In this document: positions 60,169-64,000 of the stretch, in pieces | Numbering within the stretch: position 1 is the stretch's first letter | Layout: every line of letters starts with the position of its first letter | Assembly: GCF_030503435.1 (NCBI RefSeq) | Contig: NZ_JAUKPO010000002.1 | Span: 124,001 to 188,000 of the forward strand | From: Rhodocytophaga aerolata | GTDB taxonomy: Bacteria > Bacteroidota > Bacteroidia > Cytophagales > 172606-1 | Length of the DNA stretch: 64,000 nt | Reading direction: 5' to 3' | The notes under the pieces: model-generated | Seen by the model: the letters and a program-made list of their open reading frames with translations, nothing else | Database searches by the model: none | What the model was told of the DNA's origin: nothing | Made by a program: the position numbers and the translations under genes

Positions 60169-61110
60169 CTACCTGTGTTTTGTTTGTTCCAGCTGGCTTC
60201 TGATATACGCTACTATTTGTATGTAAGCCTCCGGATGGAACCAATGTATCTGCGGATCTTTAGAAAACCAGGTAAGTTGCCGCTTGGCATACCGGCGCGA
60301 ATTTCTTTTGAGTAACCGTACCATTTCTGCATAATCATATGTACCTGCTAGGTAATCAAATACTTCTGTATAGCCTACCGTTTGCAGGGCATTGTGTTCT
60401 TTGTATGGCAATAAATGTTTAGCTTCCTCTACTAGTCCATTCGCTAACATTGCGTCCATCCGGGCATCTATCCGATTATATAGCTCTTCCCGGTTACGGG
60501 TAAGGCCTATTTTTACCAGATGAAATGGCCGGATAATTTTATTCTGTTTGCGGAAAGAAGAATAAGGCTGCCCGGTGCTCAGGCTGACCTCTAGTGCCCG
60601 GATAACCCGTTGCGGATTGGCCCGGTCTACTTGCTGGGCATATAGAGGGTCCAGGGTATCTAATTGAGTTAGTAAAGGTTCAAGCCCATCTTGCTGATAC
60701 TGTGTGGTGAGGGCCTCGCGGATGGCAGGGTCTGTATCCGGAATTTCGTCTAGTCCTTCGCAAAAAGTCTTGATATATAATCCCGAACCACCAGTAAGAA
60801 TGACTACATCTTTCTTCCGGAAAATTTCTTCTGCAATAGCTAACGCATCTTTTTCAAAAGCAGCAGCATGATAACTTTGGGTAATTGAATGAGAATCTAT
60901 CAAATGATGTACGATGCCTTGCCTTTCTTCTATGCTAGGTTTGGCAGTACCTATGGTCATCTCCTGGAAAAATTGCCTGGAATCGGCAGAAATAATTTCT
61001 GTCGCAAATTCTTTTGCCAGCCGGATACACAAATCGGTTTTGCCTACGGCTGTAGGGCCTACTACGAGAACAACAAATTTATCTGGTATCTGGGGTAGCG
61101 GTAGTGTCAT
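60169..61110 (-). CDS. miaA: tRNA dimethylallyltransferase
   Basis: 313 residues. Adds a dimethylallyl group to N6 of A37 in tRNAs reading codons that begin with U. The P-loop GPTAVGKTD is at 18-26. ISADSRQFFQEMTIGTAKPS carries the substrate-aspartate motif, then HHLIDS and GGSGLYIKTFCEGLD. YAKRQLTWFSKD near the C-terminus is the conserved tRNA-binding/catalytic segment. The start is 14 bases after the upstream membrane protein gene, suggesting co-transcription. Confidence 0.97.
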   Translation of the reverse strand: MTLPLPQIPDKFVVLVVGPTAVGKTDLCIRLAKEFATEIISADSRQFFQEMTIGTAKPSIEERQGIVHHLIDSHSITQSYHAAAFEKDALAIAEEIFRKKDVVILTGGSGLYIKTFCEGLDEIPDTDPAIREALTTQYQQDGLEPLLTQLDTLDPLYAQQVDRANPQRVIRALEVSLSTGQPYSSFRKQNKIIRPFHLVKIGLTRNREELYNRIDARMDAMLANGLVEEAKHLLPYKEHNALQTVGYTEVFDYLAGTYDYAEMVRLLKRNSRRYAKRQLTWFSKDPQIHWFHPEAYIQIVAYIRSQLEQTKHR

Positions 61111-61664: not shown

Positions 61665-61700
61665 GTGTACCTATAAACGAAAAACCAGCCTGAAATCTTA

Positions 61701-61705
61701 TAAAT
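61701..61705. repeat. left target-site duplication TAAAT
   Basis: TAAAT directly abuts the left inverted repeat and is repeated at 62733-62737. With the adjacent TA of the repeats, the shared sequence TATAAAT is seven bases. Confidence 0.75.
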
Positions 61706-61720
61706 TAGGAGTTACGCAAA
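61706..61720 (+). repeat. left terminal inverted repeat of the insertion sequence
   Basis: TAGGAGTTACGCAAA, exact reverse complement of the right end. Confidence 0.9.
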
Positions 61721-61748
61721 AAGGGTAAATTAGCTAAAAGCGCTAAAG

Positions 61749-62726
61749 ATGCAAGTCGAAGAATATATTGCCTATTTGCTGAGTAGCCCTAGGAACAGTA
61801 GTTGTGTACAAGCAGGAGATGTGCTGCAAGTGTCCCATGATGAGGTGAATCGCTTTTTACTTTCAGGGGAGTATCAAGGGGAAGATTTATTTAAAGCCGT
61901 TGCCTCAAGTATTGAATTAACTGGTGGTACCTTAACAGTAGATGATACGGTGCTGGATAAGCCCTACACAGAGTTGAGCAGTACAGAAGTAGTCGGCTAT
62001 TTTTGGTCAGGCAAGCATCACAAAGCCGTTAAAGGAATTAATCTGATTGTGCTCCTTTATACCACCGTGAGTGGCTACAGTGTACCGGTGAATTTTCGTG
62101 TGTACCGCTCAAGTGAGGGCAAAACTAAAAACGATTATTTTCAAGCGATGCTTCAACAAGTATGGCAGTGGGGACTACGACCTGCATGGATTACGGCTGA
62201 CAGTTGGTACAGTTCATTAGAGAATTTAAAATTCTTGAGAAACCTGGAAGTAAATTTTATGGTGGGCCTGGAGAAAAACCGCATTATTTCTACTCAACCT
62301 TCCCTTTATGAGCAGGTAGGCCAAGTAGCCATCCCCCAAGAAGGACTGTATACTCACTTAAAAGGATTTGATTTTATAACAGTGTTTCGGACGGTTTGCC
62401 AAGAAGGAGACGAGAGGCACTACGCTTTATATGAGAGCGGCCATGATAGGGCTTTACCTGGTTTGCCGGCCAGGGCAGAGTTTGAAGCCCTTCGCCTCAG
62501 ACACTGGCAAGTGGAGGCTTTCTTTCGCTGTATCAAACAATGTTGTCAAGCTGAAAAATTCTTTGTGCGTAATACCACGGCTATTCACACCCATTTATTT
62601 TGTGTGATGAGAGCTTTCCAGAAGCTAGCTGCTTTAACACTAAATAACTTGATTGATTCTATGTATGCTTTGCATAAAATGATCTTTCTGCAAGCTCAAC
62701 GACTATTCATTGCAAACTTTGCGTAA
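61749..62726 (+). CDS. IS4/IS701-like DDE transposase
   Basis: 325 residues. Catalyses cut-and-paste transposition of the surrounding element. The RNase H-like core carries D65 or D66 in TLTVDDTVLDKPY, D151 in AWITADSWYSS and E256 in RHWQVEAFFRCIK, the three acidic residues of the DDE triad. The N-terminal 60 residues include SHDEVNRFLLSGEYQG, a helix-rich region that likely binds the terminal repeats. The reading frame is intact and its TAA stop (62724-62726) lies inside the right inverted repeat. The start is ATG at 61749, 29 bases after the left repeat. Confidence 0.9.
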   Translation: MQVEEYIAYLLSSPRNSSCVQAGDVLQVSHDEVNRFLLSGEYQGEDLFKAVASSIELTGGTLTVDDTVLDKPYTELSSTEVVGYFWSGKHHKAVKGINLIVLLYTTVSGYSVPVNFRVYRSSEGKTKNDYFQAMLQQVWQWGLRPAWITADSWYSSLENLKFLRNLEVNFMVGLEKNRIISTQPSLYEQVGQVAIPQEGLYTHLKGFDFITVFRTVCQEGDERHYALYESGHDRALPGLPARAEFEALRLRHWQVEAFFRCIKQCCQAEKFFVRNTTAIHTHLFCVMRAFQKLAALTLNNLIDSMYALHKMIFLQAQRLFIANFA

Positions 62727-62732
62727 CTCCTA
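62718..62732 (-). repeat. right terminal inverted repeat of the insertion sequence
   Basis: TTTGCGTAACTCCTA, exact reverse complement of the left end. It supplies the transposase stop codon (TAA, plus strand) and, with its last three bases read on the minus strand, the TAG stop of the neighbouring gene. Confidence 0.9.
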
Positions 62733-64000
62733 TAAATAATCTTTACCAAACTCAGTTGCCAGCCTGTGCATCAGAAAAATAACAGCTAGCTCTGCCTGGC
62801 TTTCCTGGGATACGTCTTTTGGGATATACAGAGTATATTCTTGTGTAGCCGTATCGCCAGCTTTTCCATTGCCTGCCTTCTGAATAAGGGCCAGCAGTTT
62901 ATTATTGGCTAGCAGTTCATAGGTATTTTTTGGATTTACCGGATTCAGCGTATATACCTGATACCCAATCATCCCTTCTAGATTTCTGGCATTTAGCACA
63001 AAATCACCTGCCAGTAATCCTTGCGACATACACCTGATCTGTACGTGGGCTTTTGGCACTTGCATAGCACCTGCAGCAGCAGCAGGAGCACTTTGCCAGT
63101 TGAACTGCATCCAAAGCTGGTAATCCGTCTGACTTACTGTTTCTGCAATATCTACTCTGGAAGAATAATTATTATCCGGGCTCTGTAAACTGCCAGTATA
63201 TACCTGCATCAGATCAATGGGATAGGTTTTTCCGGATTTAGTATCCGTATAAATATATTTACTTGCATGTGGCTGCCCTTTTTGTGCCGGAATATTGGAT
63301 TGCAATGCTTGAAGCGTATATCGATTGGCTTTTTCCAGAAATGCTTGATAGTCCGGATTAGTCAGGACAGGCCTATAAAAAGTACGCAACGGGAGCCGCT
63401 TAGTCTCAGCTTTAAAAACCGCCGCTAATGATTCAAGAAAGAGGTCTTTCCAGTCCTTTTCGCTCAGCTCTGTTTCGCCATACAAACCCTTCTCCGGATT
63501 TACAGTGGTCCGGAAAGGAAGAGTTACTCTGTGCGTATATACCGATTTGCGGTCTTGATCTTCTATTTTTACTTCGGCTACTGCCTGATAATGCCGGATG
63601 GGCAGCCCACTTGTTTCTATCGCTGTGGTAGTAAAAGCAATGGTATGAGTAAAAGCCACAAAATAAGCAGCGGTAGTACGATCAGTAGTAACAAGCTTCA
63701 GCTTCGCAGGCAGGGGTGTAGCTGAGTAAGCAAATGTTAGCCAGGCAGCTGAATCCTGCGGGTAGACATGGGTAACTTCCAGTTTTTTACGTACCTGCGT
63801 TTGTAGTTCCTGCCATACAGTTTGTTGCCAGCTGGTATCCTGGGTAAAATAATCCGGAAAACTTTGTTCACTGAGCAAACTTCTCAACGACGGATACAAC
63901 TTTACTTCCTGCTTCACATCGGTAATAACGGCTACTTTTTCCTGCCCATAACTTCTGTAGATGAAACCCAAAAACAAAATTCCTATCCAGAAAAATTTAT
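62730..64000 (-). CDS. predicted secreted protein of unknown function, 5' end outside window
   Basis: About 420 residues are visible. The frame stays open to the window edge through KFFWIGILFLGFIYRSYGQE, a signal peptide whose first residues lie outside, so the in-frame TTG at 63977 is not the start. The mature protein is beta-rich, with repeated alternating strands such as KLKLVTTDRTTAAYFVAFTH and ALIQKAGNGKAGDTATQEYT. I recognise no family. The C-terminus EFGKDYL ends at TAG 62730-62732, bases that belong to the terminal repeat of the adjacent insertion sequence. It probably formed a transcript with the membrane gene at 61125 and miaA before the insertion. Confidence 0.65.
   Translation of the reverse strand, partial: KFFWIGILFLGFIYRSYGQEKVAVITDVKQEVKLYPSLRSLLSEQSFPDYFTQDTSWQQTVWQELQTQVRKKLEVTHVYPQDSAAWLTFAYSATPLPAKLKLVTTDRTTAAYFVAFTHTIAFTTTAIETSGLPIRHYQAVAEVKIEDQDRKSVYTHRVTLPFRTTVNPEKGLYGETELSEKDWKDLFLESLAAVFKAETKRLPLRTFYRPVLTNPDYQAFLEKANRYTLQALQSNIPAQKGQPHASKYIYTDTKSGKTYPIDLMQVYTGSLQSPDNNYSSRVDIAETVSQTDYQLWMQFNWQSAPAAAAGAMQVPKAHVQIRCMSQGLLAGDFVLNARNLEGMIGYQVYTLNPVNPKNTYELLANNKLLALIQKAGNGKAGDTATQEYTLYIPKDVSQESQAELAVIFLMHRLATEFGKDYL
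62733..62737. repeat. right target-site duplication TAAAT
   Basis: Second copy of the duplication, directly after the right inverted repeat. These bases also encode the last residues of the secreted protein on the minus strand. Confidence 0.75.

Follow-up and report, generated by a model that had tools for sequence, protein, structure and literature searches.

At the end of the 64,000-nucleotide window analysed here, a complete insertion sequence is located at the 3' end of a secreted-protein gene, with genes for a membrane protein and for MiaA following on the other side (Table 1). The position given in the initial annotation was found to hold to the base. The terminal inverted repeats of the element (TAGGAGTTACGCAAA and TTTGCGTAACTCCTA) are perfect, with 15 of 15 bp complementary, and apart from its two arms the window contains no exact match to the terminal repeat. 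No further exact match to the repeat core TAGGASTTACGCA was found across the 9.07-Mb genome, which contains, in addition to the single full copy, two decayed and internally deleted relics. One of these (G000:C127:13762-14035, L002) has kept both ends within ~274 bp, shares 75-78% identity with the window copy and looks like a miniature non-autonomous derivative; the other (G000:C125:85492-85721, L004) is a remnant of a related element. No target duplication was recognised in either relic, so they are uninformative on target choice. The window copy itself is complete and its insertion probably recent.

Table 1. Coordinates of the genes and element features at the insertion locus (positions within the window).
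Feature	Position	Strand	Remarks
miaA, tRNA dimethylallyltransferase	60169-61110	-	TIGR00174, 292 bits
Membrane protein, 179 aa	61125-61664	-	33 bp from the secreted-protein gene before the insertion
Left target-duplication copy TAAAT	61701-61705		same 5 bp as 62733-62737
Complete ISAba11-like insertion sequence	61706-62732	+	1,027 bp; single full copy found in the genome
Left terminal inverted repeat TAGGAGTTACGCAAA	61706-61720	+	15/15 complementary to the right arm
Transposase, 325 aa, DDE type	61749-62726	+	NCBIfam NF049921, 353 bits; alignment of relatives
Right terminal inverted repeat	62718-62732	-	minus-strand reading begins TAG, where the secreted-protein gene now stops
Right target-duplication copy TAAAT	62733-62737		minus strand ATTTA, the last coding bases of the secreted-protein gene
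Secreted-protein gene	62730-63998	-	open frame of 422 aa up to the window end; ends GKDYL, stop TAG

The transposase open reading frame is intact, and its product passes the cut-off of 250 bits for NCBIfam NF049921, 'IS701 family transposase' (transpos_IS701_2). Against NF033540, the classical IS701 model, it scores 77 bits and stays below the cut-off of 150. Its likely catalytic acidic residues, D65/D66, D151 and E256, are invariant across an alignment of 12 relatives. As described in the initial annotation, the stop codon of the transposase (TAA, 62724-62726) falls inside the right repeat. It starts 9 bp from the element end, as it does in four other copies of the group, compared with 19 bp in the Acinetobacter copies, and this arrangement is read as compactness and not as a device.

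The NF049921 score, the 5-bp duplication, the terminal repeats and the DDE residues place the element in an ISAba11-like group. It has the TAGGA(C/G)TTACGCA ends and the AT-rich 5-bp duplication of ISAba11/transpos_IS701_2, and its transposase is homologous over nearly the whole length to that of the 1,101-bp Acinetobacter copies in our sample, with 38-39% identity. The window element differs from these copies in being 74 bp shorter, in the position of its transposase stop and in its host, which we take to be a Bacteroidota-type genome. An element from a genome of the same family (G002:C8:421611-422637) is 79% identical, likewise 1,027 bp long, and has TAG...CTA ends, an intact transposase and a 5-bp duplication (TTTAG); unlike at the window copy, no convincing gene ends at its junctions. 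A published description of ISAba11 (PMC7885321) places one copy at nt 98631-99731, with a 5-bp repeat TATAG and a length of 1,101 bp that matches the Acinetobacter copies analysed here, and gives another copy the repeat ATTTA, the same 5-mer as the target in the window. IS701 in the older, narrow sense, as delimited in the IS4 review (PMC2266710), has 4-bp duplications and a length of 1,400-1,550 bp. The window element has in common with it a DDE transposase distantly related to IS4 and the 77-bit similarity to NF033540, but differs in its length and in its sub-threshold score, and it was filed under the ISAba11-like group because its duplication is 5 bp long.

To reconstruct the empty site, the flanks were joined by script with one copy of TAAAT kept (GATTATTTATAAG). 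On the minus strand the reconstructed site reads GGT AAA GAT TAT TTA TAA, ending the protein with GKDYL-TAA, and the occupied site reads GGT AAA GAT TAT TTA TAG, or GKDYL-TAG. Both frames of the initial annotation were thereby reproduced, as was its conclusion that the protein is unchanged to the last residue. The target, ATTTA on the minus strand, consisted of the final five coding bases and was directly followed by the old stop TAA, which the insertion has moved to the opposite side of the element. Read from the secreted-protein gene, the element begins with the three bases that form the new stop. The initial suggestion that a terminal TA supplies the new stop is thus correct in deriving it from the element end, although all three bases of the TAG, and not two, are element-derived. 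We propose that an ISAba11-like element, IS701-related and with 5-bp AT-rich targets, inserted at ATTTA directly before the TAA of the secreted-protein gene. Because the ends of the group read TAG inward and the junction coincided with a codon boundary, TAG replaced TAA and the protein remained as it was. Of the three positions that a junction can take at a stop codon, only one restores the stop in this way; at the remaining two, 7 to 12 element-derived residues would be added.

The secreted protein matched no Pfam or NCBIfam family above cut-off. Homologues are present in every genome of the family that was searched and have a conserved C-terminal end like FGQDYL. In the only genome of the same genus, the homologue (37-38% identity) lies in a different gene neighbourhood and ends ...EFGQDYL-TAA at the same residue with no element there, and no DNA match to the element was found in that genome. 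In the family's other genera the homologues extend two residues further, with ends such as ...DYLEY and ...DFLGY, so that in all seven other family genomes the protein ends either at the same Leu or two residues after it. An end at this Leu therefore exists within the genus in a gene that lacks the element, which supports GKDYL as the pre-insertion end of the protein. The initial annotation had proposed a search for the empty site in related genomes. That search found no true empty site and no shared gene neighbourhood among the genomes searched; what it did provide is this element-free gene with the expected DYL-TAA end.

Other copies of the group were collected from same-family genomes, cyanobacteria, Methylobacter and Acinetobacter, giving 37 distinct copies with a 5-bp duplication. 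The duplications are richer in A+T than the flanks (85% vs 65%), and their sequences mostly differ. A repeat as short and AT-rich as TAAAT could in principle arise without duplication, in which case the frame match would be accidental. Such an origin has next to no probability here, given that the repeat sits exactly outside perfect inverted repeats, that the same 5-bp length recurs in the 37 copies with mostly different sequences, and that 5-bp repeats, among them ATTTA, are described for ISAba11 copies in the literature (PMC7885321). The initial reading of TAAAT as a target duplication is therefore retained. The outermost bases are T...A in 36 of the 37 copies, which gives TAG at each end read inward. 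Three relatives (L008, L016 and L023) have C...G as outermost bases (CAGGA...TCCTG) and no recognised duplication, and their ends would supply no TAG stop.

These TAG ends, general in the group, together with the exact position of the window copy at a stop and a second copy that touches one, might suggest a preference of the element for stop codons or the 3' ends of genes, with host proteins kept intact as a low-harm strategy. The distribution of the copies makes this extremely unlikely. The suggestion in the title of the initial annotation that the element lands on stop codons and rebuilds them, taken as a property of the element, does not extend beyond the window copy, the only one of the 37 that lies exactly in front of a stop; none of the other 36 does so, and for 35 of the 37 no convincing gene has its stop at the copy. 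The remaining copy (L122:2274-3926, on plasmid NZ_CP096121.1 of A. portensis), also ISAba11-like and also with the duplication TAAAT, has inserted within the stop codon of a gene for a hypothetical protein and so touches a stop, but does not rebuild it. There the frame continues into the element up to a stop 37 bp from its end, and the hypothetical protein as annotated overlaps with the transposase gene. An ORF of at least 100 aa ending no more than 10 bp upstream was found at one of 74 junctions, that of the G002 copy, with its end falling exactly at the junction. It was rejected as a second stop-codon case, being TTG-started, without a Pfam match and overlapping an ORF on the opposite strand. 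Most copies lie outside ORFs, and several interrupt ORFs far from their ends. Among 36 copies, ten ORFs with a minimum length of 80 aa extend into a copy and four of them have the TAG in frame, with about one third expected; three of these four would have stayed open for over 450 bp more, and the fourth is the window case. The enrichment of independent copies at stop codons that would mark a stop-codon-targeting element was not found, and the 'rebuilding' of the stop is not a stop-codon-targeting device. It is also very unlikely that AT-rich-target elements beginning with a stop codon on both sides do less harm at gene ends and that the TAG has for this reason been kept partly by host-side selection. 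In a literature largely without subscription journals, screened mainly by title and abstract, no report on insertion sequences that target or rebuild stop codons was recognised as relevant.

A chance expectation was estimated from site fractions counted in the window with simple ORF calls and one exact-rebuild target per gene. Of the window sites that break no gene, 0.5-0.7% are exact-rebuild sites and about 1.5-2% fall within a stop codon. For 37 copies, ~0.2 exact and ~0.6 inside-stop cases would be expected and one of each was observed, so that the two copies at stops are slightly above the expectation of about 0.8, with the exact case being the one picked for study. Exact rebuilding is thus notable for one copy (~0.5-0.7% per copy) and not for a scan of many copies. 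We infer that the element landed by chance among harmless sites and was not targeted, and it is very probable that the locus records the chance landing of a complete, probably recent ISAba11-like element, with the TAG end and a coincidence of frame keeping the protein. A selective variant, in which insertion was equally untargeted but insertions damaging the secreted protein were lost and a harmless one was left, has a substantial though less than even probability. It would fit the location of most copies outside ORFs and the retention of the secreted-protein gene throughout the family genomes searched, but there is no sign that this gene is needed and a single copy cannot tell chance from selection.

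The insertion also altered the spacing of the downstream genes. Before it, the ATG of the next gene followed the old stop after 33 bp, and it is now ~1.07 kb away; the 33 bp was confirmed by script, and the ~1.03 kb given as added in the initial annotation holds as well. The transposase gene is oriented opposite to the neighbouring host genes. Simple scans of the element detected no terminator-like site, nor any promoter-like site on the strand of the downstream genes. Sigma-70-like matches occur on the plus strand only (5 vs 2.6 expected), and the Bacteroidetes-type promoter TTTG-TAnnTTTG has no match in the element. The additional ~1 kb could affect downstream expression, an effect that the initial annotation had called likely. 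The same-genus genome does not share the gene order of the window (secreted protein, membrane protein, miaA); its secreted-protein gene and miaA are ~0.54 Mb apart and the membrane protein has only a weak match elsewhere. Co-transcription of the three genes therefore stays putative. In a relative, miaA (G002:C2:677396-678284) matches as two stretches ~59 bp apart, possibly due to a frameshift, an insertion or an assembly error.

Taken together, the window case is a real and accurately described but ordinary event that indicates no new mechanism. It extends the ISAba11-like group by one intact member and offers a clean example of an insertion sequence entering a coding frame without altering the protein. 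For annotation it calls for caution, as the present stop codon of the secreted-protein gene belongs to the element.
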